64,000 nucleotides of DNA. Origin: Paenibacillus lutimineralis. GTDB taxonomy: Bacteria; Bacillota; Bacilli; Paenibacillales; Paenibacillaceae. The stretch spans positions 3,571,501-3,635,500 of the forward strand of contig NZ_CP034346.1 in NCBI RefSeq assembly GCF_003991425.1, given 5' to 3'. This document shows positions 11,098 to 58,760 of this stretch, piece after piece. A model generated the notes under the pieces. The model did no database searches, was not told the DNA's origin, and was given only the letters and a program-made list of their open reading frames with translations. The first letter of the stretch is position 1. Each line of letters opens with the position of its first letter. The position numbers and the translations under genes are program-made.

Positions 11098-12636
11098 CTA
11101 CCCCCGTTCCGCATGAGGTGCGAATTCTTCGACAACGGCTTCAGCATCTAGCTTGGACCTCCCCATAAGCAGGGATGCCGCACAAGCCAGAAGAACAGGG
11201 ATCATTGCCCACACAAAGGTATGCGTAATGGAAGAGGACAAAGCCTCGGAGATAGAGCGAAGGGCCTCCGCTGGTATCCGTGATCTATTCTGTTCTGATA
11301 GAAGCATATGCAGATCATCCATTCGCAAAGATTTCGAAAGTGCGCCATCTCCACTGAAAATCTGATTCATCTGCTGCGAGAAGGTATGATTTTGAATCAT
11401 CCCGAACATCGTAATGCCTAGGGTCATACCGAGCGAACGCAGGAAATTGAAGGTTGAACTGGCTGTTCCACGCTGCCGATAAGTTAGTCCATGAATACAA
11501 GCATTGCTGAGCACCGAGAACGAAGCTCCGATCCCAAGCCCCACCAAGATCATGTACAGCGTTAGCTCCAACCGAGTAGACTCCGGACTTAGCGTTGTTA
11601 GTAAAAATACGCCGCATAGCAACAGAAGTAGCGTGCTAAACATGATCGACCGATACGAAAAGCGGATCATTAATTGACCGCCCACTGTAGCCGTCAATAC
11701 TGAACCAACCATCATCGGCAAGAGCACCATGCCGGAATTCGTCGCCGTGCCTCCCATGACGCCTTGGACATAAATCGGTATATACACCGATGCTGTGATA
11801 AAGGCAGCCCCACTAAAAAATCCGCACACTACACTAGATGTGTAGATCCGATTTTTAAATAAAGCAAACGTAATAATCGGCTCTTTCGCCTTCGTCTCAC
11901 AATATAGAAATACAGTTGTAAGTAGTAAAAAGCCACCGAGCAGGCTTAATATCTCAATAGAATCCCAGGCCAACTGTTTTCCGCCCAATTCAAGTGCGAA
12001 CATTAGACATACAACTGCCCCAAGCAGAGTAATAGCTCCTGTCCAGTCAATCGGCTGCTTGGAATGCTCATGCGATTCCTTGTAGAACATCATGACCATG
12101 AGCAACGCGGCCAGACCTAACGGCAAATTGATGTAGAAAATCCACTGCCAAGCAATATAGTCGGTAATGTAGGCGCCGAGCAGCGGACCAAAAATACTGG
12201 AAATCCCGAATACCGCTCCAAAGAGACCGCCCAGCTTGCCGCGCTTCTCCAACGGAACTGTATCAAACATGATCGTAAACGCAATCGGAATCAGCGCTCC
12301 TCCGCCGATACCTTGAATGGCCCGGTATATAGCCAACTGTGTAATGGATTGAGCCGTACCACACAGCGCTGAACCGATCATGAACAGGATGATCCCGAGC
12401 ATAAAAAATCTTTTTCTCCCGTACATGTCCGACAGCTTGCCAAAAATCGGCATACCCGCCATTTCCGCGACCATGTAGGCGGAGGTCACCCAGACGAACT
12501 TGTCCATCCCCCCGATCTCGCCAACGATATTCCCCATCGCTGTCGCTACAATTGAATTGTCCATCGACGCCATCAGGATACCTAGCAGCAATGCTGCGAT
12601 TACTAACGTCATCCGACCTTCTTGATGATGCTTCAT
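11098..12636 (-). CDS. MFS drug exporter, DHA2 (EmrB/QacA) family, 14 TM segments
   Basis: The start MKHHQEGRMT is chosen because GGAGTGG lies eight bases upstream; the earlier in-frame codon lacks a ribosome site. The 512-aa product has the family pattern: SMDNSIVATAMGNIVGEIGG in TM1, motif A GKLSDMYGRKRFFM, motif C GIGGGALIPIAF and GAVFGISSIFGPLLGAYIT, and LPLGLAALLMVM. It is predicted to be a proton-driven multidrug exporter of the inner membrane. It lies downstream of a WYL regulator gene on the same strand, with a terminator-like hairpin between. Regulation by that protein is possible but not shown. Confidence 0.93.
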   Translation of the reverse strand: MKHHQEGRMTLVIAALLLGILMASMDNSIVATAMGNIVGEIGGMDKFVWVTSAYMVAEMAGMPIFGKLSDMYGRKRFFMLGIILFMIGSALCGTAQSITQLAIYRAIQGIGGGALIPIAFTIMFDTVPLEKRGKLGGLFGAVFGISSIFGPLLGAYITDYIAWQWIFYINLPLGLAALLMVMMFYKESHEHSKQPIDWTGAITLLGAVVCLMFALELGGKQLAWDSIEILSLLGGFLLLTTVFLYCETKAKEPIITFALFKNRIYTSSVVCGFFSGAAFITASVYIPIYVQGVMGGTATNSGMVLLPMMVGSVLTATVGGQLMIRFSYRSIMFSTLLLLLCGVFLLTTLSPESTRLELTLYMILVGLGIGASFSVLSNACIHGLTYRQRGTASSTFNFLRSLGMTLGITMFGMIQNHTFSQQMNQIFSGDGALSKSLRMDDLHMLLSEQNRSRIPAEALRSISEALSSSITHTFVWAMIPVLLACAASLLMGRSKLDAEAVVEEFAPHAERG

Positions 12637-12713
12637 TGAACTGACCACTCCATTTCTTATTTCTCTCACTCTCAGACCTTGGTTTGGTTCTCTGAGGTTC
12701 TACGCTGTTATCA

Positions 12714-12749
12714 TAAAAAAAGAAGTATGACAACAGATTGTCATACTTC
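12714..12749 (-). terminator. Rho-independent terminator at the end of the WYL regulator gene
   Basis: On the minus strand GAAGTATGACAA (12-bp arm) - TCTG - TTGTCATACTTC is followed by TTTTTTT. The stem includes the regulator stop codon (12741-12743). It should end transcripts arriving from the defence operon and the regulator before the MFS gene. Confidence 0.85.
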
Positions 12750-13676
12750 TCGATAGTTATCGATCATTTTTTGCAAGGTGGTCTGGACTGCGTCTCTTAC
12801 TTCTAGCGGCTCCAACACAATGACTCCATCACCAAAGCTAAGCAAAATCGGCAATAGCCATTTCGTCAGATCTCTGTTCCTCTGCTCGAACAAAAGTTCC
12901 AGAGAACCGTCTTCATTGAAATGTTTATCCGCTCCCATAAAGAAATCAAGCGCCCGCGCCATGCATGCCGGCGTGAATCGGAGCCTGACATCAAGCGCAT
13001 CTTGTTCTACACCTGCAAAGGGCGGATGGCTGCGTAGCCCGCGAGGATTCGCCGGTTTCGGCGCATGCTTGCGAGCTTGGAAATGCTCCCCGCTAACGAC
13101 CAGTGACAAGATCCGCGGCAGCTTGAATTCTCGATATCCGTTCCGTATTCTACAGAAAGCATATAGATACCACGAATCATAGACATACCCCAGATGCAAA
13201 GGCTCAACCGTCCGCTTGATCCGCTCCCCCTTGGCGCTCACATACTCAAATTGAATGACCCGTTGTTCGTGAATGGCCTCCCTGATCTCGCGCAAAGTCT
13301 CGTTATAAGGTCTCCAGCTGCCAATATCCACCGACAGGCTAGGTTTGCCCGTCTGATAGACCGACTGCAGCTTGTGAATCGTCTCCTCAGCTTTATCATC
13401 CTCGAAAATAGCAGACATGCTACGCAGCAGCGTCACGATAGAATTCACGTCATGGGTACCAAGCAAACTGCGGTCCATCTTATACTCTTCCATAATGCCG
13501 TAACCGCCGTTAACGCCTTGATAGGATATCACCGGGATGCCCGCTGCACAGAGCGTCTCAATATCTCGATAAATGGTCCGCTGGGACACATTATACTTCT
13601 CTGCGAGTGCCGAAGCTGATACAATCTCATGATTCAGCAGCATATAGACCATGGAAATAAGCCTTTCCAGTTTCAT
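12741..13676 (-). CDS. HTH/WYL-domain transcriptional regulator (YafY-like)
   Basis: AAGGAG lies about seven bases before ATG. Residues 1-60 are a DeoR/HTH_11-type winged helix (ASALAEKYNVSQRTIYRDIETLCAAGIPV, then GVNGGYGI). Residues ~130-200 form the WYL domain (QFEYVSAKGE, VEPLHLGYVYDSWYLYAFC). A WCX-like C-terminal domain follows. Proteins with this layout include ligand-sensing repressors and the BrxR/CapW group that controls phage defence operons. It begins only 29 bases after the helicase gene of the putative Shango operon on the same strand and is followed by a terminator, so read-through co-transcription is likely. Alternatively it controls the MFS gene downstream. Confidence 0.9.
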   Translation of the reverse strand: MKLERLISMVYMLLNHEIVSASALAEKYNVSQRTIYRDIETLCAAGIPVISYQGVNGGYGIMEEYKMDRSLLGTHDVNSIVTLLRSMSAIFEDDKAEETIHKLQSVYQTGKPSLSVDIGSWRPYNETLREIREAIHEQRVIQFEYVSAKGERIKRTVEPLHLGYVYDSWYLYAFCRIRNGYREFKLPRILSLVVSGEHFQARKHAPKPANPRGLRSHPPFAGVEQDALDVRLRFTPACMARALDFFMGADKHFNEDGSLELLFEQRNRDLTKWLLPILLSFGDGVIVLEPLEVRDAVQTTLQKMIDNYREV

Positions 13677-13705
13677 ATCCTATCTCCTTATTACGAATTT
13701 CACTT

Positions 13706-15916
13706 CTAGCCTTCCCGGTTGTGATGAAGCTTAAGTCCAGTCCTTAGCCCTTCAACATCCAGCCCATCAACAGCAAAAGCTTGACGCACCAACTCCGGTG
13801 CGATGAACTCGTCATATTTGCCCAAATAAGGCGCTTCATCAGGTCCAAGCAACATGGACGGATCTGTGCAAGAACCGCATTCGAGCATAATCTGATCCAA
13901 TAGCGCCTGGCTGTCCGCTTTGCCAGCCACCACGAAATAATACGGCTCCATCGGCACGATGGAACGAAGCGACAGGCGCTGGGAGAGATTATTTTTGAGC
14001 AGCCGCTCCAGCGTGCGGAACTGTTTGCTACCAACCCACGGCAAAATGAACAACGAGTCGCCGCCAGCCGGAATGACCGCCGATCTCAGCAGTCCGCTCT
14101 CCTTCGCTAGACGACGAGCCCGTTCGAGCCGGTTGACGGCCTGCGGAGATAGATACGGATAAATCGTGCTATCCGCCAACACCTCACGCATTTTCCTTAG
14201 GACCAACGTATGAATGTCTCCGCCAGCCCCTAGCCACAACGTATCGACTTTGCCTAAAGCCTCTTTTACGTATACCGCCTTATGCTTGGTATCCACCTCG
14301 GTGACCTTCCACAGCTTGCCTGCCAATGAGAAGCAGTAACCAGGCGGCGGCACGGTCGTAATCGAACCAATTTCCTCTGTTCCGTTATATACGGCATGTT
14401 CTTCATCATCCTTGAACACGGCGTAGAAACGGAAGTTGTTCACGATCTTCTCACCCGTAAGGCCGATAATCAAAGTTTGCTGCTCGGTCCACTGAATGTG
14501 ATCCGTCTGCAGCAAGTAATTCAGGAACACTTTGTACGTATCCGGGGAAATCCGACGAAAAGATGGCAGCGATAGCACATCGGATGCCAGCTCGGCAGGC
14601 GTCGCTTCGCCTCTACTCTTCAATATACTCATCGTCTGATGGTATAGAAGGCCGATCGGCATTTGCCGAATATCGAGCGGCTCCACCCAGCGGTCGCGGA
14701 CGTACAGCTCGATGACAGCAATCGCCCGCAGCAGCATCCAGGGCATACGCGCCGGCAGCATCGCATCTTCGTCCTCTTCCTCTGGACAGACGAACAGCAT
14801 CTCGGAGGCCGCATCTCCGCGCCTCCCAGATCGGCCTAGCCGCTGCACGAAGCTGGAGGCGCTATAAGGTGCGCCTAGTTGAACGACCCGTTCCAGCTCT
14901 CCCAAATCGATTCCCAGCTCCAGCGTCACGGTTGCAGCGGCAACAGCCGGGCCAGGCTTATCCTTCAGCGCGGCCTCCGCTTCTTCGCGCAGCATCGCAG
15001 AGATGCTGCCATGATGCACGTAGAACACATCCGGCTGATGGCGGTGCGCCGCAACTCTGCGAAGCTCCAGTGTCGTCAATTCCGCATCGGAACGGCTATT
15101 GGTGAATACTAACGCCTTCTTCAAATGTGTACTGTCATAGATGAAGTTGTAATAGGCCTTGCGGGCATTCTGCAAATGCTCGGCCTGCTCCTCGTCCCGC
15201 GCATCCGGGAACGAGAAATGCTCGACCCGCAGCCGCAGCTTGCGTCCACCAGGCACGGAGACAGCGTCAACCGGCTGCTTGCTTCCCGCACCAAGCCAGG
15301 CCTTCGCTGCTTCATAGTCACTTAGCGTTGCGGACAAGCCAACACGTCTTGGTGAGCAGCCCGCCATTCTCTCAATCCGTGTGATCTGGCTCAACACCTG
15401 GATGCCCCGATCCACGCCCATAAAGGCATGGACCTCGTCGATAATGATATATCTGAGATCATGGAACAAAGCGGGAATCGCATTGGGCCGATTCATCAGC
15501 AGCCCTTCCAGCGATTCCGGCGTGATCTGCAGTACACCCGAGGGGTTACGCATCAGCTTGCTCTTCTCTGTCTGCGAGACATCGCCATGCCAATGCCAGG
15601 CGGGAATATTGCCATCCCGAAGCAGCTCTTTGATCCGTTCGAACTGGTCATTGATTAGCGCCTTTAAAGGACCAATATACAAAATACCTACAGATGCGGA
15701 TGGACGCTCATACAGCTCGGTCAAGGCCGGAAAAAAAGCCGCTTCCGTCTTCCCCGACGCCGTTCCCGCGGCAATCAGCATATGGTGTGACGTATCCATG
15801 CAAATTTTAAGCGCTTCAACCTGAGCCGGACGAAGCGTCTCCCATCTTTTTCGGTAAATAAATTCCTGAATAAATGGCGCCAAACGATAAAATAGCTGAT
15901 TCTCCCCGCCGCTCAT
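13706..15916 (-). CDS. Lhr-like DEAD/DEAH-box helicase of a Shango-type defence operon
   Basis: The 736-aa product carries a complete superfamily-2 helicase core: Walker A GTASGKT (51-57), motif Ia GPLKALINDQ, TPESLEGLL, DEVH (160-163), SAT (195-197), TLELGIDLGE and motif VI QRLGRSGRRG (358-367). A long C-terminal part of about 330 residues resembles Lhr-like or BrxHI proteins. Its ATG overlaps the stop of the ATPase gene by four bases, so the two are translationally coupled. Together with the DUF2791-type ATPase and the TerB-like protein it gives the three-component set reported for the anti-phage system Shango. A nucleic-acid remodelling or degradation step during phage infection is inferred from family. 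Confidence 0.88.
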   Translation of the reverse strand: MSGGENQLFYRLAPFIQEFIYRKRWETLRPAQVEALKICMDTSHHMLIAAGTASGKTEAAFFPALTELYERPSASVGILYIGPLKALINDQFERIKELLRDGNIPAWHWHGDVSQTEKSKLMRNPSGVLQITPESLEGLLMNRPNAIPALFHDLRYIIIDEVHAFMGVDRGIQVLSQITRIERMAGCSPRRVGLSATLSDYEAAKAWLGAGSKQPVDAVSVPGGRKLRLRVEHFSFPDARDEEQAEHLQNARKAYYNFIYDSTHLKKALVFTNSRSDAELTTLELRRVAAHRHQPDVFYVHHGSISAMLREEAEAALKDKPGPAVAAATVTLELGIDLGELERVVQLGAPYSASSFVQRLGRSGRRGDAASEMLFVCPEEEDEDAMLPARMPWMLLRAIAVIELYVRDRWVEPLDIRQMPIGLLYHQTMSILKSRGEATPAELASDVLSLPSFRRISPDTYKVFLNYLLQTDHIQWTEQQTLIIGLTGEKIVNNFRFYAVFKDDEEHAVYNGTEEIGSITTVPPPGYCFSLAGKLWKVTEVDTKHKAVYVKEALGKVDTLWLGAGGDIHTLVLRKMREVLADSTIYPYLSPQAVNRLERARRLAKESGLLRSAVIPAGGDSLFILPWVGSKQFRTLERLLKNNLSQRLSLRSIVPMEPYYFVVAGKADSQALLDQIMLECGSCTDPSMLLGPDEAPYLGKYDEFIAPELVRQAFAVDGLDVEGLRTGLKLHHNREG

Positions 15917-17256
15917 AATTCAAACTCCGCCAGAAAATCATCCAATTCGTCCTTCTGCTCCCCAGCACCCGCCGTATGTTCCGTCCTTCGCTCACCAAGC
16001 AGTTGGCTGAACGAAGCCTCTGGATTCTGATGCAAGGTATGCAGTAAATCCATGAAATCACGTACGACTTCACGCGGTGTTAGCAGCTCGTCCGCTCCCA
16101 TTCTACCGACAGCCATCTTCATAAATTGAATTAAATCCGCATCTGTCAAGGTTGGAGTATAACCAAAATGCAAACCATGAATTTGCCGCAGCTTCTGCAG
16201 CAGAATCAAAATCTCTTCATGCGAGAGCATCTCCAACTTGAGAATTGGGCCAGTGTAGTTGCGGTAGCCAGCCCCCGCAAAGCGGCCTTCCACCAGACGG
16301 GAGCGCAGAGCCTCATAGCTGAATAGACCGCGCCGTTCATCCTCGACAAACTGAGGCGTACCGCCCAGAAAAATGCCAAGATGCTCTGCTTTGCCCTGCA
16401 TCGTATCGTTAAACATGGTCAATAGCTTTTCATAGTTGCTCGAGCGAGCGATGCTGTTCGAAATTTTATATAAATTAACGCCCTCGTCGATAAATAGCAG
16501 CAGTCCTTGATATCCAATCGCCGCCACAAATTCCGACCACAGCTTGATATAGTCATACCAGTTGTCATCATCAATAATGGCACTCACATCCAGCTCTTTC
16601 CGCGCTTCGGTCTTGGTCGGGAACTCGCCGCGCAGCCAACGCAGCGCTGCCTGCTTCTGCCCGTCCTCCCCGAGCTTATGCCCGTTCCAATAGGCTGCCA
16701 ATACGCGGGCGAAGTCAAAGCCGTGCACCAGGTTCTGCATTTGCGCCGTAACTGTGAAAATCCGCTGCTCCACGGCCTCGGTTAATGCCGAATCACCGGG
16801 GCGCAAGCCTTCGTCTTTCATGGCCTCCTGCTGAATCGTCGTAATCCACTTCTGCAGGACGGCCTCCAGCGCTCCACCGTCCGGTCGCGTACGCGTCGAC
16901 AGATGCGTCATTAGTTCGCGGTAGGTGGCCAAGCCTTGCCCTTTCGTACCGACCAGACGGCGTTCGGGCGACAGATCGGCGTCAGCCGTCACGAAGTCGC
17001 GGTCGAGCGCATAATTGCGGATGGTTTGCAGTAGGAAGCTCTTACCGCTGCCATAACGCCCGGTGATCAATCTCATGGCTGCTCCGCCAGCGCCGATGTT
17101 GTCCATGTCGCGCAAAATAGCCTCGACCTCAGCCTTCCGCCCCACCGCGATATGCTCTAAGCCGATTCTCGGTACTACACCCGCAGTCAATGAATTAATC
17201 AGCGCGGTTGTCAGCCGCCTCGGTATTTTGATATCGGTCGTTTTTGATTCCGTCAT
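15913..17256 (-). CDS. P-loop ATPase, DUF2791/BrxD-like, of a Shango-type defence operon
   Basis: The 447-aa product has Walker A GRYGSGKS (66-73) and Walker B LLLFIDE (252-258) in the arrangement of DUF2791 (BrxD-like) ATPases. Family-like stretches include TGRYGSGKSFLLQTIRNYA, LLLFIDEGVNLYKI and a sensor-like GIFLGGTPQFVEDERRGLFSYEALRSRL. It overlaps both neighbours by four bases (ATGA type), showing one translationally coupled operon. In BREX and related systems such ATPases accompany an Lhr-like helicase. Here the TerB-like partner points to Shango rather than BREX, and no BREX methylase or PglZ gene is present. Confidence 0.87.
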   Translation of the reverse strand: MTESKTTDIKIPRRLTTALINSLTAGVVPRIGLEHIAVGRKAEVEAILRDMDNIGAGGAAMRLITGRYGSGKSFLLQTIRNYALDRDFVTADADLSPERRLVGTKGQGLATYRELMTHLSTRTRPDGGALEAVLQKWITTIQQEAMKDEGLRPGDSALTEAVEQRIFTVTAQMQNLVHGFDFARVLAAYWNGHKLGEDGQKQAALRWLRGEFPTKTEARKELDVSAIIDDDNWYDYIKLWSEFVAAIGYQGLLLFIDEGVNLYKISNSIARSSNYEKLLTMFNDTMQGKAEHLGIFLGGTPQFVEDERRGLFSYEALRSRLVEGRFAGAGYRNYTGPILKLEMLSHEEILILLQKLRQIHGLHFGYTPTLTDADLIQFMKMAVGRMGADELLTPREVVRDFMDLLHTLHQNPEASFSQLLGERRTEHTAGAGEQKDELDDFLAEFEL

Positions 17257-18800
17257 TCCACTCCACCTCGTCCATTTCGCCCTAATAATGCAAAATAATC
17301 TATATAATCTTCGGCGATAGAATCACCCTCCACCACCAAATCTCCAATCGTCTCCATCGCTAGCTCGTTGATTTCATCGAGCAGCAGCGCTGGCATGGTT
17401 CCATATTTTTCGGCAATGTCGTTTAGCCGGCCGCTTGTTTCTTGTAACGCATATAAGGCTTCGAGATGGGCCTGTCTAAGCTGTCCCACAAACAGCAGCC
17501 AATCTTCATCCAAGCCGGAAGTATTCCAGACGATCTCCTGATCCGAGTCTGTATAGGATGGATCATCTTGCTCATCCACCTGTTCCTGCTCTAGCACTTC
17601 TTCCGCTTCTGACTCCATATCCTGCGCTACATCCTCCACTACCAGTTCATCCTCGACGGTCAGCATGCTTCGCACTTCTTCACTATCCTTCTGCAGCGTG
17701 GCTAGTCGTTCGGGATCAATAGAGATCACAGGACTGGTAGACTTGATTGCTTCTATATATTCCTTCTCCAGGAAACGCTCGATCAGCATCTGCGTCTCCT
17801 TCATGAGAGAAATACCTCGCAGACGCCCTTTGAAGTGCTGAAGCTCCCGCAGTTTATTTTCCGTACAACGGATCAATTGGGTGATGTAATAACGAAGCGG
17901 CGGGCATTTCCGCAATTGGAAAATACGAAGCGGCAGTGTGCGCCCATATAACTCTGCATCATAGACGGCATTGCGGAATAAATAACGCTCGATCGTCTTT
18001 CCATTACCTTTATAGAAGGTATCGATCAGATTTTTACCGGTTGTCTTCCGCATATAGGAATCAACCAGTGCGACCACCTTTGGCATATAATTCTCCATAA
18101 GTGCACGTCCTCCACTTATGTAAAACTTACTGCGCTGCAAGTCATAATCCGAGAAAGTTAATATGTGCTCCAACCGCAGCTTGGAAGGCTCATTCTCCAA
18201 AATTCTCTTTAATTCCAGATCGTACAGCTCCCCGGATTTCGCAATAGAGGATCGCATGACAATATCCATTAGTGGCAGGTTCAGCTTATGCAGCAGCACA
18301 AAATCACAGACCCATTCCGCTATATAGTTATTCAGCTTCGGATACATCGCTTGGTAAGCGCCCCATAATTCCATAAGCAGATTATAGCCTTGTTCCGGCT
18401 CCTTCCAGCCAACGCCCTGAATCAGTTCATATAGATAGACAAAAATATAGGAGAGGTCGGTAAATGGATACCGTCCCTGCCTTAACTCGCTGCGCCAGTA
18501 AAAATACCAGCTCTGCTGATCTTCATCCATCTGCTCGAAGGTAGGCCAATAGCTCATGAACGGAAGATAGAGCGACGGCTCTCCTTCCCGCTGCTCCCAT
18601 TCCTTAGCTTGCTTCACGAATCTACGTTCTCTCGTAAGCTCTTGCACAGACAGAGAGGACCCTTGAACAGGTTGATCCTTCCGCTCAGGTATGATCATCT
18701 CCTGCAACGAGCCGCTCTGCTCTTGTGCTTCACTTATATCTATTTCTGCAAAGTTCAACGATTTGTTATATGAATTCATGGAACTCCCATCACCATTCAT
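17253..18800 (-). CDS. TerB-N/TerB-C domain protein of a Shango-type defence operon
   Basis: The N-terminal third carries the TerB-N pattern PFMSYWPTFEQM, QQSWYFYWRSELRQGRYP and DLSYIFVYLYELIQG (about residues 80-150). The C-terminal ~70 residues (WLLFVGQLRQAHLEALYAL, GTMPALLLDEINE, ETIGDLVVEGD) match TerB-C. The acidic stretch at about 385-430 is probably a linker. TerB-like proteins are linked in the literature to membrane-associated stress and defence systems. This is the first gene of the operon; the next ATG overlaps its stop by four bases. The start is uncertain: ATG 18800 has a weak upstream GAGG, and ATG 18779 is an alternative. A LexA-like box and an extended -10 lie within 75 bases upstream. 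Confidence 0.85.
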   Translation of the reverse strand: MNGDGSSMNSYNKSLNFAEIDISEAQEQSGSLQEMIIPERKDQPVQGSSLSVQELTRERRFVKQAKEWEQREGEPSLYLPFMSYWPTFEQMDEDQQSWYFYWRSELRQGRYPFTDLSYIFVYLYELIQGVGWKEPEQGYNLLMELWGAYQAMYPKLNNYIAEWVCDFVLLHKLNLPLMDIVMRSSIAKSGELYDLELKRILENEPSKLRLEHILTFSDYDLQRSKFYISGGRALMENYMPKVVALVDSYMRKTTGKNLIDTFYKGNGKTIERYLFRNAVYDAELYGRTLPLRIFQLRKCPPLRYYITQLIRCTENKLRELQHFKGRLRGISLMKETQMLIERFLEKEYIEAIKSTSPVISIDPERLATLQKDSEEVRSMLTVEDELVVEDVAQDMESEAEEVLEQEQVDEQDDPSYTDSDQEIVWNTSGLDEDWLLFVGQLRQAHLEALYALQETSGRLNDIAEKYGTMPALLLDEINELAMETIGDLVVEGDSIAEDYIDYFALLGRNGRGGVE

Positions 18801-18836: not shown

Positions 18837-18842
18837 ATCATA
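18837..18842 (-). promoter_or_regulatory. Candidate extended -10 (TGTTATGAT) of the Shango-type operon
   Basis: On the minus strand TG-T-TATGAT ends about 37 bases before the first start codon. No good -35 is present, as is usual for extended -10 promoters. The region where a -35 would lie (18860-18866) falls inside the LexA-like inverted repeat. Confidence 0.45.
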
Positions 18843-18858
18843 ACATTTTTATTGACGC

Positions 18859-18874
18859 TAGAACACACGTTCTA
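18859..18874. promoter_or_regulatory. LexA/SOS-box-like inverted repeat upstream of the Shango-type operon
   Basis: TAGAACACACGTTCTA is a 6-4-6 inverted repeat containing GAAC-N4-GTTC, the core of the Bacillus LexA (Din) box CGAACRNRYGTTYC. Twelve of 14 consensus positions fit; the two outer bases differ. It covers the -35 side of the candidate promoter, the place where a repressor would act. Confidence 0.5.
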
Positions 18875-18905: not shown

Positions 18906-18942
18906 AAGCCCGCCAGAAGCTTATCAGCTTCCAAACGGGCTT
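18906..18942 (-). terminator. Rho-independent terminator of the serine hydrolase gene
   Basis: AAGCCCG and CGGGCTT form the outer stem (18906-18912 with 18936-18942), with an inner stem GAAGCT / AGCTTC. On the minus strand a T-rich run TTTAATTTT follows. It lies ten bases after the hydrolase stop and insulates the defence operon from upstream reading. Confidence 0.75.
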
Positions 18943-34003: not shown

Positions 34004-34017
34004 CGAACGAATGTTCT
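34004..34017. promoter_or_regulatory. LexA-box-like sequence
   Basis: CGAACGAATGTTCT fits CGAACRNRYGTTYC at 13 of 14 positions, about 40 bases upstream of a small coding frame. A GAAC-N4-GTTC core is expected about once per 64 kb by chance, so this may be coincidental. Confidence 0.3.
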
Positions 34018-34224: not shown

Positions 34225-34370
34225 ACAACAAGGAATATGAGAATACCTCATCGAATAAGAAAAATATGTTGGTCAAATTGTGCTTAGCAATCCATAAGAA
34301 ACAACCCAAGCTGAGATGTCCTATAATATAGTTAATGTAGATATCCCTCATGAACAAAGGAGAACTTAAA

Positions 34371-35918: not shown

Positions 35919-36827
35919 TTATTCTTCTTGGCTGCCCTGTCTACCGGCATAATAAGGCTCTCCTGGATCAAGATCGATCACGACACGGCGAGGTTCTACC
36001 AGTGAGTATTGATGCTCACACCGCCAACGCATATCTTCGCTAATCCCAATCGTCTCTCCGTCCTTAATGATATCGCCCTGATTATATAGATAGTAAGCGA
36101 TATTTCCCAGTTGCTCAGCAACCTCATTTGGTTCCAGATCAAAATAATGACATTGCACGTCGGGAATCCCCAGCGCTGCCAGCCCCACCGAATCCATGAG
36201 TCCCTCTGCTCTTCCGCTACCGGTTCCTTCCACATTATAGAACCGGATATTTAACGCGCCATATAGTAAATTGCCTTGCTCTACAGCAGACAGGTATTCG
36301 TTAGGCTCAAGCAGCTTATCGCTCTCACGGAAGTATATCGCGTCACAAGGGCAGGCCTCCAGAACCGCACGAAGCGCACCGCTAAACAGCTGCAGCCGTG
36401 ATTGAGGCTCTAACCCTGCAGCCATCATGTCTACCAATAACAAAGTATGATTGCATTGCTCCAAGGTTTCAGCGGCTTCCTGCCAATGCCAGGACTGCTG
36501 CAGCGCTGTGTTGTAATCCTCGGCCGGGCGATGTTCGATATTCATCAAGCTGGTCTGAGCCGGCAGTTCTCCTTCCGTATATTGAACCATATAGTTCAGA
36601 TGAAAAAAATGTAGCAGCGTTCCCTCATATTCCTCATTAGCCTCCCACACGGCAAGCTCCTCGGCCGCGGATTCTTCCGCTTCCGGCATGCTTGTCCTGC
36701 CTGTGTAAAGCTCCATTTTCTTATAAAGTAAATCCCGATCCAGCTTCGGCTCCTGCTTGAACTTTAGTTCAACAGCATAGACACGTGCAAAGCCAAGATC
36801 ATTCTCTTCATTCAGCATTTCATTCAT
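35919..36827 (-). CDS. DUF4261-type protein
   Basis: ATG 36827 is preferred because AAGGGG ends directly before the earlier ATG at 36836, leaving proper spacing only for the later one. The ~302-aa product has the DUF4261 C-terminal pattern (GIPDVQCHYFDLEPNEVAEQLGNIAYYLYNQGDIIKDGETIGIS) and an acidic N-terminal half. No membrane segment or known catalytic site was seen. It follows the S1-like gene by 58 bases on the same strand and may be co-transcribed. Function unknown. Confidence 0.72.
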   Translation of the reverse strand: MNEMLNEENDLGFARVYAVELKFKQEPKLDRDLLYKKMELYTGRTSMPEAEESAAEELAVWEANEEYEGTLLHFFHLNYMVQYTEGELPAQTSLMNIEHRPAEDYNTALQQSWHWQEAAETLEQCNHTLLLVDMMAAGLEPQSRLQLFSGALRAVLEACPCDAIYFRESDKLLEPNEYLSAVEQGNLLYGALNIRFYNVEGTGSGRAEGLMDSVGLAALGIPDVQCHYFDLEPNEVAEQLGNIAYYLYNQGDIIKDGETIGISEDMRWRCEHQYSLVEPRRVVIDLDPGEPYYAGRQGSQEE

Positions 36828-50671: not shown

Positions 50672-52456
50672 TTATGAGACGTAGCCTTCCGACTGAATCA
50701 CCTGGGCTGCTATTTCCCGCTTTAATGTCACCAGATTGAGAGGAGTTCGTTTGGACCATTTCTTCAAGACGGAGAGCTGTGTCCGCAGCATATCACCGGA
50801 AGCGATCGCACTCAGCACTTCTTTGGCCCAGTTCTCTATGCGCCCGAATTCATCCTGAATGTAAGCCGTTGTCAGTAAAATCGCCAGCTTCGATTTCTCT
50901 TCAGAGGTCTGGTTGATCCGTTTCTGCGTCCGCAGCAATGCACTCTCCATCGCAAATATCGAGATCATAATATCGGCAAGGTAGCTAAGTACCTCCTGCT
51001 CCTGCTCAAGCTTGGCTTGATAGGTCTGCACCGCACCTGCCCCTACGAGCAGAAATATCTTCTTAGCCATCTTCAGTAAATGGGCTTCCTGCTCGAGAAC
51101 ACCATCTCCCTCTGGAGGACTGACTCGCTCCATCATCTCGGCCTGCAGTTCCATCGCTTTCTGCAGCAGCGGCAATTCTCCCTTAAGCGCCCGCTTCATT
51201 AGAGTACCGGGGATCAGCAGCCGATTAATCTCATTCGTTCCCTCGAAAATACGGTTAATCCGCGAATCACGGTAAATCCGCTCAATCCGGTACTCCTTTG
51301 TATATCCGTAACCACCATGAATCTGCACACCTTCATCGGCCACAAAATCCAGCGTCTCCGAGCCAAACACCTTATTAATCGAGCATTCCAGCTGATACTC
51401 AGCGATCGCCTTGGCGGAACGGTAGCCGACATCTGCAGCGCTAAGATCTACTTCCGCTAGCCCCGTATCAAACAATCCGGCCGTCCGGTAGACCATACTC
51501 TCCAGCACATATGTGCGGATGTTCATGTCGGCTAGCTTCTGGCCGATCAGCGGGAAGGAGGAGATTTTCTGGCCGAATTGGGTCCGCTCGTTCGCATAAT
51601 GAGCCGCAAGCTCAAGCGCGTCCTTAGCTGCTCCGACACAGCCTGCGGCCAATTTGAACCGACCGATGTTCAGTATATTAAAAGCGATCAGATGCCCTTT
51701 GCCAACTTCCCAAAGCAGGTTCTCTGCCGGAACTTTGACGTCCTCAAGGATAAGCGGACAGGTGGACGATGCCTTGATGCCCATCTTCTTCTCCTCTGGT
51801 CCGATGCTGACGCCCTCCATCGTGCGCTCCACGATAAAGGTGCTGAACTGTGTGCCATCTACCTTGGCATAAACGATGAATATGTCCGCAAATCCTGCAT
51901 TCGTAATAAATTGCTTCGTACCATTGAGCACATAATGGCTTCCATCCTCGGATAATTGGGCCGTCGCCTTGGCGCCCAGCGCATCCGATCCAGACGAAGG
52001 CTCTGTCAAGCAATATGCGGCGATCTTCTCCCCGCTGGCCAGACCCGGCAAGTACTTCTGCTTCTGTTCCTCCGTTCCGAAGTAGACGATCGGCAGCGTC
52101 CCGATCCCAACATGCGCTCCGAACGACAAAGCGAAGGAGGAAGCTTTGGTCAGCTTCTCATTGATCAGCGTAGTGCTGACCTTATCCAGTCCCATTCCGC
52201 CGTATGCCTCCGGCACATCCGCGCCTAACAAACCTAATTCGCCGGCTTCTCGGAGTAATTTTACCGTCAGATCATAATCCAGATTCTCCAGTTGCTCATC
52301 ATGCGGGGCAATTTCCCCTTGCACAAATTGCTTCGTCATGTCGGCGATCATCCGCTGCTCTTCCGTGAAATCCTCAGGCGTAACCATATTCTGAAAATCC
52401 CCGTCTTCGATCACAAAGCTTCCGCCGCGCACTTTCTTCATCGCTTGCTGATTCAT
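50672..52456 (-). CDS. fadE: Acyl-CoA dehydrogenase
   Basis: AAAGGAG lies before ATG. The 594-aa length equals B. subtilis FadE, with the same layout: N-terminal helical domain (FTEEQRMIADMTKQFVQGEIAP), FAD-binding middle (CLTEPSSGSDALGAKATA, TQFITNAGFADIF), the C-terminal helices with QIHGGYGYTKEYRIERIYRDSRINRIFEGTNEINR, and a C-terminal extension of about 150 residues. It catalyses the first oxidation step and passes electrons to ETF (etfBA at 59.6-61.4 kb). It is separated from fadA by a 440-bp repeat-bearing gap. Confidence 0.95.
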   Translation of the reverse strand: MNQQAMKKVRGGSFVIEDGDFQNMVTPEDFTEEQRMIADMTKQFVQGEIAPHDEQLENLDYDLTVKLLREAGELGLLGADVPEAYGGMGLDKVSTTLINEKLTKASSFALSFGAHVGIGTLPIVYFGTEEQKQKYLPGLASGEKIAAYCLTEPSSGSDALGAKATAQLSEDGSHYVLNGTKQFITNAGFADIFIVYAKVDGTQFSTFIVERTMEGVSIGPEEKKMGIKASSTCPLILEDVKVPAENLLWEVGKGHLIAFNILNIGRFKLAAGCVGAAKDALELAAHYANERTQFGQKISSFPLIGQKLADMNIRTYVLESMVYRTAGLFDTGLAEVDLSAADVGYRSAKAIAEYQLECSINKVFGSETLDFVADEGVQIHGGYGYTKEYRIERIYRDSRINRIFEGTNEINRLLIPGTLMKRALKGELPLLQKAMELQAEMMERVSPPEGDGVLEQEAHLLKMAKKIFLLVGAGAVQTYQAKLEQEQEVLSYLADIMISIFAMESALLRTQKRINQTSEEKSKLAILLTTAYIQDEFGRIENWAKEVLSAIASGDMLRTQLSVLKKWSKRTPLNLVTLKREIAAQVIQSEGYVS

Positions 52457-52896
52457 CCGATCCTCTCCTTTTGAAATGATCCTTTTGAACTCGTTGCTCT
52501 AACGAAACTACAGATCCCTATTACCGCCAAAACAGTTCGTTTTCAGATCTAACGAAACTACATATCGTTATTTGAGCTAAATTCAAGCTTAAAGCTTCCA
52601 TTTGGGCTAAATAGCGATACCACGTTTCGTTAGAATTTCTAGAGGCTCGTTTTTGGCCAAATAGCGATACCCTGTTTCGTTAGAATTTCCGGCTGCCACC
52701 TTTGTTCCGATAGCTACTGATTCCGTTGTAGGCGGCTTCTAATGCGTGCCGGAACTAACTTGCTTGAATAGCTGCACCTGTCCATTAGCTCCTGTGCCAC
52801 GATTTGTGCTACCCACGTTACGTAAAAATGTTGTTTCAGGGTTCCAGGGAGCAGCCCCCCAAAGTCCCAATGTCTCGTTGTCCTGCCCCGGCAACT
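52457..52896. other. 440-bp gap inside the fad gene cluster
   Basis: No gene was recognised; frames here lack ribosome sites. About half of it is the TCTAACGAAACT repeat array (52498-52684). No FadR box or clear promoter for fadE was found. Confidence 0.5.
52498..52684. repeat. TCTAACGAAACT repeat, locus 3, two direct then two inverted units
   Basis: Plus-strand units lie at 52498-52524 and 52548-52575, and minus-strand units at 52603-52633 and 52655-52684. The two-plus-two inverted arrangement is the same as at 9606-9790, and opposite units can pair into long hairpins in RNA. Confidence 0.8.
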
Positions 52897-54078
52897 CTAC
52901 CCGTGCACCTCAAACACTCCGGCTGCGCCCATCCCGCCACCGATACACATCGAGACGACGCCATAACCGCCGCCGCGCCTGCGCAGCTCGGAGATCAGCG
53001 AGGCACTTAGCTTCGCTCCCGTACAGCCGAGCGGATGGCCGAGCGCAATCGCGCCCCCGTTCACATTCACTTTCTCCTTATCCAGCTCAAGCTCGCGAAT
53101 AATATGAAGGCATTGCGAAGCAAAGGCTTCATTGATTTCATACAAGGCTACATCCTCGGCCGTAATTCCGGCCATCGCCAGCGCCTTGGGAATCGCTTTG
53201 ATCGGTCCGACTCCCATCAGCTCCGGTTCAACGCCGGACAGCGCGAAGGATCGGAACGTCGCCAGAGGTTTTAGCTGCAGCTGCTCAGCCTTTTCTCTGC
53301 TCATGACGACCAGCGCGGCAGCTCCGTCGCTCATTTGAGATGAATTGCCTGCCGTTACCGTACCGCCGACCTTGAAACTCGGTGACAGCTTGGAGAGAGC
53401 ACCCAGCGTCGTATCCTCCCGCACGCCTTCATCCGTATCAAAGACCTTAACCCTCGATCTTACTTTTCCTGAATCTTCGACATCCCTGAACTCGGTCTGG
53501 ATTGGAACGATTTCCTCCGCATACTTTCCAGCGGCAATCGCTGCCGCAGCCCGCTGATGCGAGCGCAGGGCAAAGGCATCCTGATCCTCGCGGCTAATCC
53601 CGAACTTCTCCGCCACTCGCTCCGCTGTATGCCCCATTCCGATGTATACCTCTGGGTACTGCTCCACGATCCGCGGGTTCGGCGACACTTTAAAGCCGGT
53701 CATCGGCACATGGCTCATGCTTTCTACGCCTCCGGCGATAATAACGTCCGCATGCCCCAGCATGATTCGTTCCGCAGCAAAAGCGATCGACTGCAGCCCC
53801 GAAGAGCAAAAACGATTCACTGTAAGCGCCGGAACCGTCACTGGGAATCCAGCATACAGCGCCATAATACGGGCAAAATTCAGTCCTTGTTCCCCTTCCG
53901 GCATCGCACAGCCGATGATAATATCTTCAACATCTTCTTTTTGCAGGCCCTTGGCCCGCTCTACAGCCGCTTCAAGCACGGCCTTGCCTAACTCGTCGGC
54001 ACGGGTTTGAACGAGGCCGCCTTTTTTCGCCTTGCCGACCGCTGTCCGCGCCAACGATACAATGACTGCTTCTCTCAT
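52897..54078 (-). CDS. fadA: Acetyl-CoA C-acyltransferase (thiolase)
   Basis: GGGGAGGGAAG lies before ATG. The 393-aa product has the acylated Cys91 ([15 protein letters not shown]), the NEAFA motif, [16 protein letters not shown] with the catalytic His, and [13 protein letters not shown] with the second Cys. It cleaves 3-ketoacyl-CoA in the last step of beta-oxidation. It starts 18 bases after fadN and matches B. subtilis FadA in size and position. Confidence 0.96.
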
Positions 54079-54096
54079 TTTCTCTTCCCTCCCCAG

Positions 54097-56496
54097 CTAA
54101 TTCCGCAGCGGCTTGCCTGTCGTCAGCATATGCTTCATGCGCTGCCTCGTCTTTACCTCACCGCACAGGCTCAGGAATGCCTCCCGCTCCAGGTCGAGCA
54201 TATACCGCTCGCTGACCAAGGTGCCCGCGGGGACATCTCCACCAGAGAGCACATGTGCCAGCTTCTTCGCGATCAAGAGATCATGATCGCTGATATACCC
54301 GCTCTCCCTCATACCGATGGCTCCAAGCTGCAGTACGGCTTTGCCTTCGGCGCCAACAACGCGCAGCTTGCTCTCCTGAATCGGCTCATAACCGGAGCCG
54401 GCCAGGCGCAGCACCGCCTGCTTCGCTTCATAAATCGCATAGTCCGGGTTGATCACGACCCGGTCGCTCGCTTTCAGATAGCCGAGACGCTTCGCCTCAT
54501 GTCCGCTGGTAGACACCTTCGCCATGCCGATCGTCTCGAACAGTCGATTGATATACGGCTGCAGATCCGCCTCTGGCAAATGAGCCTGCATACTCGCCCG
54601 CAGCGCCAGCTCCTTACAGCCGCCTCCGGCCGGAATCAGGCCAACGCCTGCCTCGACCAGGCCATAGTATGTCTCCGCCGCGGCGATCACCTGGTCTGCG
54701 GGCAGGCATACCTCAACTCCTCCGCCAAGGGTCATCCGGTGCGGCGCGGCGACGACTGGCTTCTCAAAATATTTCAATTGATACATCGTGTTCTGGAACA
54801 ACGCTATAATGTCATCGACCTCATCCCATTCCTCATCCTCCGCTTCCATCATCAGAAGCATCAGATTGGCGCCGACGCAGAAGTTGCGCCCTTGATTGGC
54901 AATGACCAGTCCGGCATAACCACGCTTCCTGATCTCTTCCTGGCTCTGCGTGATCATGCTGAGAATATCTTCACCGATCGCATTGTTCGGGGAATGGAAC
55001 TCCAGACAGGCCACACCGTCGCCCAGATCAAGCAAGCTTGCGCCAGTGTTGCTTCGAAGCACCCGCTTCTGCTCCTTCAAATCGCGCAGCGAGATGATCT
55101 CCGGCGGCTGCTCTACCGCTTTGAATTTTCCGCTCAGCACATGGAACAACTGGCCTTCCTCTCTTTTATAGAACGATGTGTTGCCTGCTGCGATCCATTC
55201 GCTGACCCACCCTGGAATCTGAAGACCCTCGGCTTCCATTCTTCTCACGGACGGAATCAAGCCAATGGCGTCCCATGTCTCGAACGGCCCCATTTCCCAA
55301 TTGAAGCCCCATTTCATCGCTTCGTCGATCTCACGGATGTTGTCCGCGATCTCACCGAGCTTGGCTGCGGAATAGAGCAGCACAGGCTTCAACACATTCC
55401 AGGCTAGATCGGAATAACGATCTCCTCCGCTGAGCAGCGCTTTTAACTTCGCTTTGGCACCTTTGGCGGCCTTTGCTGCTTGCAGCGATCCGGAGGAGGG
55501 TTTCGCTTGCGGCTCATATGTGAAGCTCTTCAGGTTCAGAGCGAGTATCTGGCTCTTGCCCTGTTCTTTGAGCTTGCGATAGAAGCCCTGGCCCGATTTC
55601 TCGCCGAGCCAGCCCTGCCCCACCATCTCCTGAAGCGGCTCTGGCACGGTGAACACTTCGATCTCGGCTTCATCCTGCACATTCTCCCGCACATTGTCCG
55701 CCACATGGAGGAAGGTATCGAGGCCGACCAGATCGAGTGTACGGAAGGTCGCACTCTTCGGCCGTCCCATGGCCGGACCCGTTACAGCATCGACCTCCTC
55801 AACGGTGTATCCTCGCTGCAGCATCTCCCGCAGTGTAACAAGCAATCCGTACGTACCAATACGATTGGCAATAAAATTAGGCGTATCTTTAGCAATCACC
55901 ACCGTCTTGCCCAGAGCACGCTCCGCAACTTCGCGCAGGCGGTCAACATGTGCAGGCTCTGTATGCTGTCCGGGAATAATCTCCAGCAGCTTCATATAAC
56001 GCGGAGGGTTAAAAAAATGTGTTCCCATGAAATGCTGACGGAACTCCAAGGATCTGCTCTCGCTCATTGCCTCAATCGAAATCCCTGATGTATTGGTGCT
56101 AACCAGAATACCTGGCTTCCAATGCTGCTCAATCTTGGCCAGAAGCTCTTGCTTTACCGCCAGATTTTCTACTACTACCTCGATGACCCAATCCGCATCC
56201 TGAATCCAATGCAGGTGGTCTTCCAGATTGCCCGGACGGATGCGGGCCGCGAATGCTTCATCATATAGCGGTGCTGGCTTTCTTTTGACCATACCGGCTA
56301 TAGCTGCTGCAGCGAAGCGGTTCCTCACCACCGAGTCCGTGAGTGAATATCCCTTGGCCTGCTCCGCTTCCGTCATTTCCGCAGGAACGATATCGAGCAG
56401 CGAACAGGCAATCCCTGCATTGGCAAGCTGCGCCGCAATCCCGGAACCCATAATGCCCGAACCGATAACTACTGCTTTGGAAATTGATCTATTCAT
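54097..56496 (-). CDS. fadN: 3-hydroxyacyl-CoA dehydrogenase / enoyl-CoA hydratase
   Basis: GGAGGTAG lies upstream of ATG. The 799-aa product begins with the NAD-binding motif VVIGSGIMGSGIAAQLANAG (residues 10-28), then HFFNPPRYMKLLEIIPG and the dehydrogenase C-terminal domain (NFIANRIGTYG, VDAVTGPAMGRPKSATFRTLDLVG). A crotonase domain follows in the second half (VACLEFHSPNNAIGEDIL, NQGRNFCVGANL, TLGGGVEVCLPADQVIAAAETYYGLVEAGVGLIPAGGGCKEL). This is the B. subtilis FadN order, opposite to E. coli FadB. It hydrates and oxidises acyl-CoA intermediates. Confidence 0.95.
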   Translation of the reverse strand: MNRSISKAVVIGSGIMGSGIAAQLANAGIACSLLDIVPAEMTEAEQAKGYSLTDSVVRNRFAAAAIAGMVKRKPAPLYDEAFAARIRPGNLEDHLHWIQDADWVIEVVVENLAVKQELLAKIEQHWKPGILVSTNTSGISIEAMSESRSLEFRQHFMGTHFFNPPRYMKLLEIIPGQHTEPAHVDRLREVAERALGKTVVIAKDTPNFIANRIGTYGLLVTLREMLQRGYTVEEVDAVTGPAMGRPKSATFRTLDLVGLDTFLHVADNVRENVQDEAEIEVFTVPEPLQEMVGQGWLGEKSGQGFYRKLKEQGKSQILALNLKSFTYEPQAKPSSGSLQAAKAAKGAKAKLKALLSGGDRYSDLAWNVLKPVLLYSAAKLGEIADNIREIDEAMKWGFNWEMGPFETWDAIGLIPSVRRMEAEGLQIPGWVSEWIAAGNTSFYKREEGQLFHVLSGKFKAVEQPPEIISLRDLKEQKRVLRSNTGASLLDLGDGVACLEFHSPNNAIGEDILSMITQSQEEIRKRGYAGLVIANQGRNFCVGANLMLLMMEAEDEEWDEVDDIIALFQNTMYQLKYFEKPVVAAPHRMTLGGGVEVCLPADQVIAAAETYYGLVEAGVGLIPAGGGCKELALRASMQAHLPEADLQPYINRLFETIGMAKVSTSGHEAKRLGYLKASDRVVINPDYAIYEAKQAVLRLAGSGYEPIQESKLRVVGAEGKAVLQLGAIGMRESGYISDHDLLIAKKLAHVLSGGDVPAGTLVSERYMLDLEREAFLSLCGEVKTRQRMKHMLTTGKPLRN

Positions 56497-56582
56497 CTAC
56501 ACCTACCTCCAACCCATGAAATTCACTTTTAGTGCGTTTCAACTATCTTTTAGATCCGCTAGCGCAAGGTAAGCCTGATCAG

Positions 56583-58760
56583 TTAGGCCAAGGCCTCGCC
56601 AAATACCGACAGCTCCACAATCTCCGCAATATCCTTTGTCCTCACGTCAAGCTCCTTCATTTTGACCCCGTCCTCCAGCATCGTTAGACAATACGGGCAT
56701 CCGCTGCCGATCATCGTTGGAGATACCTCAAGGGCCTGCTCCGTCCGAGCCAAATTAATTCGCTTGCCACCCGTCTCCTCCATCCACATTAGACCGCCGC
56801 CGGCTCCGCAGCACATCGCATTCTCACGCGAGCGCTTCATCTCCATCAGCTCCATTCCGGGAACCCGGCGAAGGATTTCCCTCGGCGCATCATAAATGCC
56901 GTTATAACGTCCCAGGTAACAGGAATCGTGGTAAGTCATTCTTTCCCGCACCTCATGGCTAAGGGTCAGCTTCCCTTCTTTAATGAGCCGTTCCAGCAAT
57001 TGGGTATGGTGAATGACCTCAACGTCCTCAAGTCCAAATTCGGGATATTCATTTTTAAAAGTGTTAAAAGCATGCGGATCGGCAGTCACGATCTTCCGTA
57101 CCCCATACTGCTGGAACAGCGTGATGTTCTCTTGGCAGAGCTGCTGGAACAGGAACTCATTGCCCATCCGCCTTGGTGTATCGCCGGAATTTTTCTCTTC
57201 ATTGCCGAGAACGGCAAAGTTGATTCCTGCCTCCAGCATGAGTCTAGCGAAGGAACGGGAAATTTTACGGCTGCGCAGATCGTAAGATCCCATTGAGCCG
57301 ACAAAGAACAAATATTCAAATTGCGGATTATCATGTACCGTTGGTACAGACAACCCCTCCAGGTCAGCGGTCCAATTGAACCGCTCATTTCGGCTGATCC
57401 CCCACGGGTTGCCCTGACGCTCGATATTTTGCAGCGCCCGCCTACCTTCCTGTGGAATACTGCCCTGCATCAGTACAAGATGACGGCGCAGATCGATAAT
57501 CTTGTCGACATGCTCATTGCCGACCGGACATTGATCCTCACAATTCCGGCAGGTTGTGCAGGACCAAATTTCCTCCTCTGTCATCACATCCCCGATCAGC
57601 TCCAGTTCTGCGGCACGAGCATCACCCAAATCGCTCTGATCCTGAACTCCCCAGGCGGCAGACTGCCAATCCAGTGTTGGGCGAATGTCCGTAATGTGTG
57701 GCAGACTTGAATCCATCCAGGCTACGGCTGAATTTTTCAGCCCTCTTAACTGATGTGTAGCAGTCTGTGAGGATGCGAAGGCATAGGACGGCTGCCATGG
57801 CGATTTTCCGGTCTGCTCGGTACCGACATCAGTCAGATGATCACGCAGCTTCGTTATCAGGTGCATAGGTGACAGCGGTTTGCCCGTATTAGAGGCAGGG
57901 CATACATTCGTGCAGCGCCCACATTCTACACAGGCGTAGAAGTCGAGCATCTGCTTGCGCGTAAAGTCCGTGATCGCTCCGGCCCCGAAGCTCTCCGCTT
58001 CTTCGTCCTCCAGATCGATGCTGGTCAGGCGACCAGGCGGTTCCGTACGGCGCAGCCAAATATTAATCGGTGCTGTAATCAAATGAAAATGCTTCGATTG
58101 TGGAATATACACTAGAAAAATTAACAAGATGAGAAGATGCAGCCACCAAAAGAGATAGAAGAGCACTTCAGCAGCAGAGGTGGATAAAGATTGGAGTGCT
58201 AGAGATATTAGTGAGGATACTGGTGCATAGAGAGATGGGTCTAATTGGAACCAAATACGCTCCAGGCTTAATGAGAGTAGAACCGTCAACATAATGGACG
58301 ATATCAAGATGAGAACAAGGCTTGGTTTCCAGCCTTTCTTCAAACGTGGCAATTGTTCACCATATCTGCGGTAGGCCGCATAACCGATTGCGATCAGAAT
58401 AAGCAGAACCGTCACTTCCTGGCTAAGCCCGAATAGATGGTAACCAGGTAATAGCAGATGCCCCCCTCGAGTCAATCCTTTGACAATCAAGTCGATGGCA
58501 CCAAACTGCAAAATAATGAATCCGTAAAAAATCACAATATGCATGACCCCGCTGCGCCAGTCCTTCAGTAGTTTCCGCTGTCCGAATACCTGGCTCAGAA
58601 ATTCGCCCCAGTTGTTCCAGGAGAGCCTGCTTCTTGCTCGAAACTCTACGGGACGCCCAAGGCTCATGTACAGATAACGATGATATACCGCCTTATAAAA
58701 TAAATAAATGGCATAGCCCGTTACCAGCAGGAACATAATCCATTGCAGCATTTGCCACAC
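56583..58760 (-). CDS. fadF: Membrane Fe-S oxidoreductase FadF-like (heterodisulfide-reductase-type)
   Basis: GTG 58760 follows AGGTGA by seven bases; ATG 58751 is possible. The ~725-aa product has five or six TM helices in the first ~250 residues, including the N-terminal QWIMFLLVTGYAIYLFY. Two [4Fe-4S] ferredoxin motifs follow (CVECGRCTNVCP and CTTCRNCEDQCP), then two CCG-type domains (YHDSCYLGRYN, ENAMCCGAGGGLMW, GSGCPYCLTMLEDG). It is expected to accept electrons from ETF and pass them to the quinone pool. It is first in the leftward fad cluster, 86 bases before fadN. Confidence 0.92.
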   Translation of the reverse strand: MWQMLQWIMFLLVTGYAIYLFYKAVYHRYLYMSLGRPVEFRARSRLSWNNWGEFLSQVFGQRKLLKDWRSGVMHIVIFYGFIILQFGAIDLIVKGLTRGGHLLLPGYHLFGLSQEVTVLLILIAIGYAAYRRYGEQLPRLKKGWKPSLVLILISSIMLTVLLSLSLERIWFQLDPSLYAPVSSLISLALQSLSTSAAEVLFYLFWWLHLLILLIFLVYIPQSKHFHLITAPINIWLRRTEPPGRLTSIDLEDEEAESFGAGAITDFTRKQMLDFYACVECGRCTNVCPASNTGKPLSPMHLITKLRDHLTDVGTEQTGKSPWQPSYAFASSQTATHQLRGLKNSAVAWMDSSLPHITDIRPTLDWQSAAWGVQDQSDLGDARAAELELIGDVMTEEEIWSCTTCRNCEDQCPVGNEHVDKIIDLRRHLVLMQGSIPQEGRRALQNIERQGNPWGISRNERFNWTADLEGLSVPTVHDNPQFEYLFFVGSMGSYDLRSRKISRSFARLMLEAGINFAVLGNEEKNSGDTPRRMGNEFLFQQLCQENITLFQQYGVRKIVTADPHAFNTFKNEYPEFGLEDVEVIHHTQLLERLIKEGKLTLSHEVRERMTYHDSCYLGRYNGIYDAPREILRRVPGMELMEMKRSRENAMCCGAGGGLMWMEETGGKRINLARTEQALEVSPTMIGSGCPYCLTMLEDGVKMKELDVRTKDIAEIVELSVFGEALA

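Follow-up and report, generated by a model that had tools for sequence, protein, structure and literature searches.

We analyzed a three-gene operon related to the anti-phage system Shango in a 64,000-nucleotide stretch of the Paenibacillus lutimineralis genome (contig NZ_CP034346.1, positions 3,571,501 to 3,635,500; hereafter the window, in which all positions are counted). The reading that we favor, with moderate confidence, is that this operon represents a sister lineage of Shango without the TerB domain, which is kept by most of the Paenibacillus genomes examined, is under LexA (SOS) control in P. lutimineralis and many of its relatives, and probably serves in phage defense by acting on DNA that is damaged or being replicated. 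Published Shango combines a TerB-like protein with an ATPase and a helicase, and anti-phage activity has been demonstrated for the system of Pseudomonas aeruginosa PA14 (PMC10250203); PF05099 (TerB) is given as the domain of Shango in PMC10952713, and a 2026 review still lists its mechanism as unknown (PMC12926258). To a preliminary description of this DNA, which was made from the sequence letters and had assigned the operon to Shango, the present analysis adds the absence of TerB, the placement in a lineage apart and an operator of the LexA type. No description of a TerB-less Shango or of SOS control of Shango was found in the literature searched, a search whose coverage mostly excluded subscription papers and bioRxiv.

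An intact operon of the Shango family

The operon lies on the minus strand and comprises a sngA-like gene (17253..18800, 515 aa), a sngB-like gene (15913..17256, 447 aa) and a sngC-like gene (13706..15916, 736 aa). Neighboring open reading frames (ORFs) overlap by four bases (17253-17256 for sngA/sngB and 15913-15916 for sngB/sngC), as the preliminary description had stated. In Pfam searches, the sngA product matched TerB_N (residues 54-254, 126.4 bits) and TerB_C (residues 347-501, 61.2 bits), the sngB product matched BrxC_BrxD (PF10923, 552 bits) as a P-loop ATPase of the BrxC/BrxD type, and the sngC product, a superfamily 2 (SF2) helicase of the SngC/BrxHI kind, matched DEAD (94.9 bits) and Helicase_C (53.8 bits). 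These are the TerB-N/TerB-C protein, DUF2791 ATPase and helicase that had been proposed, DUF2791 being the older name of PF10923. The best PADLOC profiles for the three proteins were SngA (E 1.5e-107), SngB (E 2.7e-207) and SngC (E 4.1e-243), and the assignment to the Shango family was thereby borne out at the level of profiles.

The residues expected of working motors are in place, as had also been claimed. The Walker A residues G66, G69, G71 and K72 and the D257-E258 pair are invariant among seven aligned SngB proteins, and the SngC motifs around K56, D160-E161-H163, S195-A196-T197, T331-G339 and Q358-R365 are invariant, save for single positions, among six aligned SngC proteins. No nuclease domain was recognized by Pfam in the three operon proteins. 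Compared with the relative G003, the three genes show dN/dS values of 0.17, 0.07 and 0.05, and across 11 pairs SngB and SngC are under strong purifying selection (dN/dS 0.01-0.12). SngA changes fastest, with dN of 0.021-0.162 in these pairs compared with 0.006-0.034 for SngB and 0.008-0.028 for SngC. The four-base overlap of sngB and sngC is kept in 33 of 33 operons that are unsplit and in which each of the three genes was called, which suggests translational coupling. The three-gene operon is real and intact.

SngA without TerB and a separate lineage

Only 92 residues separate TerB_N from TerB_C in the SngA protein of the window, and no Pfam match to TerB was obtained there. In other SngA proteins TerB sits between these two domains, as seen in those of an E. 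coli plasmid (769 aa, 31.8 bits), Azospirillum (725 aa, 37.2 bits), Halocatena (760 aa, 24.3 bits) and Sulfitobacter (847 aa, 34.8 bits), one of which falls just under the cut-off of 24.4 bits. Among 34 SngA proteins of the window's kind, the window's own included, TerB_N and TerB_C were present in all and PF05099 in none (Pfam, E ≤ 1). Among the relatives listed for each query, PF05099 was found in 0 of 120 for the SngA of the window versus 108 of 120 for that of E. coli, both lists including close relatives of their own query; nine of the 12 E. coli relatives without the domain also lack TerB_C and are apparently fragments. Moreover, a local TerB model built from four sequences recognized all four of these and six of six further SngA proteins (from plasmid records outside Paenibacillaceae, one of them actinobacterial), and none of the 111 other SngA proteins of the window's and related lineages, some of which are partial or come from genomes counted twice; ten of the 125 loci, with no SngA found, were left out of this survey. 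An N-terminal hydrophobic segment, which the SngA of the window also lacks, was present in five of the nine annotated non-Paenibacillus SngA proteins measured, and among 115 proteins scanned no Paenibacillaceae SngA exceeded a Kyte-Doolittle value of 1.6 over any stretch of 19 residues. A fold comparison of a model of SngA gave no clear relative.

The lineage was examined with a tree of SngB plus SngC from 80 loci, which remained of 93 after removal of the 13 that lack SngC (one being L220); one locus is represented twice (L129 and L144). The sample is uneven, as the genome scan retained, of 446 confirmed relatives, the best 80. The ten TerB-bearing systems, from Proteobacteria, Actinomycetota and haloarchaea, formed one clade with a support of 1.0 under midpoint rooting. 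Outside this clade were the window, other Paenibacillaceae, Clostridia, cyanobacteria, Chloroflexi, a Heimdallarchaeota metagenome-assembled genome and others. Shango of E. coli was reportedly described by Millman et al. in 2022; the 80 loci of the tree include neither these copies nor that of PA14. Given the missing TerB domain and the position outside the TerB-bearing clade, we name the operon Shango-like, a TerB-less sister lineage rather than a canonical member; canonical Shango was set aside as its class for lack of TerB. What is shared with Shango is the set of three genes in the same order, encoding a TerB_N/TerB_C protein, a BrxD-like ATPase and a helicase, together with the best PADLOC profiles. 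Thus, of the earlier statement that this is the component set published for Shango, the family stands, whereas PF05099 is absent and SngB and SngC group apart from the TerB-bearing systems sampled. One set of profiles merges two lineages that differ in SngA architecture and, in many Paenibacillaceae, probably in regulation.

Several unusual forms were seen among the related loci. A TerB-less Shango on a Paenibacillus peoriae plasmid (L130:2524-13491) encodes a 1052-residue SngA, of which the first 540 residues matched nothing in Pfam at E ≤ 0.1; a long hypothetical gene lies upstream. At the cyanobacterial locus L189:3065-5819, and similarly at L191, L194, L195, L203 and L209, two ORFs precede sngB, and the local model places TerB_C in the second only or finds nothing; SngA may be split there. 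On a Sulfitobacter plasmid (L134:3835-12061), a TerB-bearing Shango is directly followed by genes annotated as a PD-(D/E)XK nuclease and a UvrD-type helicase.

A LexA-type operator upstream of sngA

A LexA (SOS)-type box, GAACGTGTGTTC (18861..18872, minus strand), lies 60 bases before the sngA start codon and scores 14.34 bits on a matrix derived from lexA and recA promoters (52 training sites, none from Shango, one of which, at 3.1 bits, is probably no true box). It fits the published Bacillus LexA consensus, CGAAC-N4-GTTCG (PMC4551915, PMC4234289), and matches the lexA promoters of Paenibacillaceae, in which a perfect GAACN4GTTC precedes lexA in all 17 genomes examined (at -57 and -161 in G000); a one-mismatch form precedes recA in 19 of 21 genomes. 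Downstream of the box, TATGAT (18837..18842, minus strand), identified by eye, is a probable -10 element. Both box and -10 element are kept in the relatives G003 and G030, and the sequence farther upstream has diverged. A hairpin followed by T-rich sequence (18906..18942, minus strand), also read by eye and not listed by a scan, is probably the terminator of the upstream gene.

Since a lone perfect match is weak evidence, we used conservation and the matrix from other promoters. The controls were upstream regions of neighboring genes in the same loci, with the Shango region masked because a divergent neighbor shares it, which puts the same operator into some controls. At about 9.45 bits or more, the matrix recognized 32 of 38 Shango promoters versus 11 of 511 control regions, and at 14.24 bits or more 20 of 38 versus 4 of 511; when each location was counted once, the box was present in nine of 14 location groups. 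A second clade within the genus keeps the half-sites CGAAC and TTTCG at full identity across the 22 promoters aligned on the box, versus 58-59% identity in the 60 bases on either side, where anchoring on the best site somewhat favors the box (one of 23 promoters was too short and left out). These results counter the view of the box as a mere chance match. SOS control of the operon in the window through this predicted box is likely, and such control is likely to be common but not general in Paenibacillaceae. Canonical Shango seems to differ here: no such operator was found upstream of two enterobacterial operons when these were searched for the box type native to them. No paper linking Shango with LexA or with Paenibacillus was found in the literature searched.

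Three more perfect GAACN4GTTC sites occur in the window, at 34005-34016, 36759-36770 and 12888-12899. The first departs from the longer consensus at one position and precedes, by about 330 bases, a RibD_C-type gene at 34350.

Distribution and genomic location

Among 98 genomes, strong SngB matches were found in 32 of 40 from the genus (G000 included; one copy is interrupted), in six of 19 from the rest of the family and in none of 39 from the rest of the order, and two more genomes had weak matches only. The best named relatives of SngB are from Paenibacillus, consistent with the Paenibacillus-like genome initially recognized. The distribution of SngA agrees with that of SngB, with one extra fragment at a contig edge in G026. 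The SngC profile also matches other helicases (98 of 98 genomes and 13 of 14 controls), so only strong SngC matches were counted.

By their flanking genes, the 38 operon copies occupy 14 locations in 38 genomes, and the location in the window is common to G003 and G030 only. A housekeeping gene at one fixed locus, which the preliminary description had named as the finding that would contradict it, is therefore rejected. A SngB plus SngC tree shares 15 of 33 splits with an rpoB tree (at most two in shuffles), but within the genus the distances correlate weakly (r 0.19, a value reached in 37 of 2000 permutations); the interrupted copies of G030 and G031 were left out of the trees and G051 out of this comparison. 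Together with the varied locations, these results fit long residence with relocation or transfer. The interruptions consist of a stop in sngB and a split sngC in G030 and a split sngC in G031.

Copies also occur on plasmids, including two Paenibacillus plasmid records. SngB matches were found in 694 plasmid records, 692 of them at less than 60% identity; they are mostly from Klebsiella and Salmonella, and 542 are typed conjugative. In the flanks of other TerB-less loci, the 92 proteins scanned match 86 PADLOC families (29 of 121 listed ORFs were left out, most of them SngA or pieces of it and including every ORF of L209), and of the 25 families listed most rest on one protein each.

In G044 (contig C27, 77644-95461; L054 and L055), about 15 kb separate sngA from sngB and sngC, a gap suggestive of an insertion into the operon.

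Relation to other defense systems

BrxD (160.3 bits) and BrxHI (414.8 bits) of BREX are the second-best PADLOC profiles for SngB and SngC, respectively. Nevertheless, the SngB of the window scores 161.8 bits versus the NCBI BrxD cut-off of 350, and no PglX or PglZ family was detected by PADLOC among 120 flanking proteins of Paenibacillaceae loci, which include the nine nearest to the window's operon of at least 150 aa, in agreement with the earlier remark that no BREX methylase or PglZ gene is nearby. On both grounds, a BREX remnant was rejected.

SngC, BrxHI, DruE and DpdJ have been placed in one helicase clade tied to phage defense (PMC12278908), and through DruE this clade links the operon to Druantia III. 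DruE is reported to engage replication intermediates containing single-stranded DNA (PMC13192584), and Hachiman to sense DNA damage, its HamB belonging to another helicase family than SngC (PMC12278908). The reports on Druantia III and Hachiman name nuclease activities, whereas none was recognized in the operon of the window.

Proposed mechanism and alternative explanations

We infer the following course of events. LexA would bind the box and keep the sngA promoter repressed; phage DNA intermediates or DNA damage would give rise to RecA filaments, upon which LexA would be cleaved and SngABC made. SngB, the BrxD-like ATPase probably coupled translationally to SngC, and SngC, the helicase of the SngC/BrxHI/DruE/DpdJ clade, may together act as a motor that is loaded onto replication DNA in single-stranded or branched form. 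SngA could serve as a helical TerB_N-TerB_C scaffold, a recognition or loading subunit bringing this motor to damaged or replicating DNA. The SngABC complex would then block or strip the bound DNA, with an anti-phage outcome; since no recognized nuclease is encoded, any breakdown of DNA would fall to host enzymes. Should the TerB-less form prove defensive, the core machine can do without TerB, and the LexA operator, if true, gives a concrete time and trigger for the action of Shango. Together, the absence of TerB and the operator turn the question of what Shango senses into simple tests.

A number of results weigh against this reading. A good box is missing in six of 38 relatives and in 24 of 47 named Paenibacillaceae loci (two sets that share some genomes), and four of 26 loci outside Paenibacillaceae reach 9.4 bits. 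The genome has 93 perfect GAACN4GTTC sites, fewer than for the reversed control pattern (167). The gene tree follows the rpoB tree only near the tips, and a repair module could be as widespread in the genus as the operon is. In addition, the Paenibacillaceae copies reside among ordinary genes: five PADLOC families at 1e-15 (WYL twice, mad3, mad2 and GajB) were found in 120 flanking proteins (120 of 196 listed flanking ORFs, from 17 loci, the remaining 76 being left out), and the two WYL families are the window's own neighbor. Residence near other defense genes, a usual though not strictly defining trait of Shango, is thus not seen in these copies, and the operon is neither a fixed housekeeping locus nor a defense-island passenger. 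Finally, no phage or damage experiments on the TerB-less lineage were found in the literature.

A bolder version of the favored reading, which we put forward tentatively as possible but doubtful, is that Paenibacillaceae hold a distinct damage-triggered type of Shango, in which an SOS switch takes the place of TerB (often accompanied by a membrane anchor) and the system polices replicating or damaged DNA in the cell. Its targets would be induced prophages, replicating phages and plasmids, which trigger the SOS response themselves.

The main rival, which we regard as rather unlikely but serious, is an SOS-regulon module for genome maintenance that processes replication forks of the cell itself when they are damaged or stalled, with any effect on phages as a by-product. 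The LexA-type operator, the presence in four fifths of the genus genomes (32 of 40), the ordinary gene neighborhoods and the strong purifying selection on SngB and SngC would all suit such a module. For repair genes, however, it would be unusual to occupy 14 locations in 38 genomes and to be missing from eight of 40 genus genomes, and both the close match to the profiles of a system whose anti-phage activity has been shown (PMC10250203) and the place of SngC in a defense-linked helicase clade (PMC12278908) argue for defense.

An ordinary, constitutive Shango-type defense whose promoter box is unused by LexA appears improbable. A good box is missing from the groups related to P. amylolyticus and P. 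lautus, so not every member of the lineage needs SOS control, but the enrichment and position of the box, its identical half-sites amid diverged flanks and its match to Paenibacillaceae lexA promoters speak against this view. Least credible by far is a decaying remnant without function, which the interrupted copies of G030 and G031 and the separated sngA of G044 might suggest, but which the open genes, intact motifs and constraint relative to G003 contradict for the copy in the window.

Neighboring genes and base composition

Downstream of the operon, a WYL regulator gene (12741-13676) and a major facilitator superfamily (MFS) gene (11098-12669) were considered as operon parts and rejected, as they do not adjoin the operon in G003 and G030. 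A pentapeptide-repeat-like gene, read as such from its repeats, follows sngC at L040:13310-13996 and at the same place in 18 other genomes; it adjoins Shango in 19 of 20 genus genomes with a match above 300 bits, which belong to another clade, and may be a fourth partner or an old shared neighborhood. As part of the operon in the window it was rejected, its best relative in G000 being 34% identical and about 3 Mb away. The GC content is 0.52-0.57 over positions 13000-17000 (the operon) and 52000-58000 (a fatty-acid degradation cluster) versus about 0.37-0.50 elsewhere in the window; the raised GC is by itself no sign of foreign DNA.

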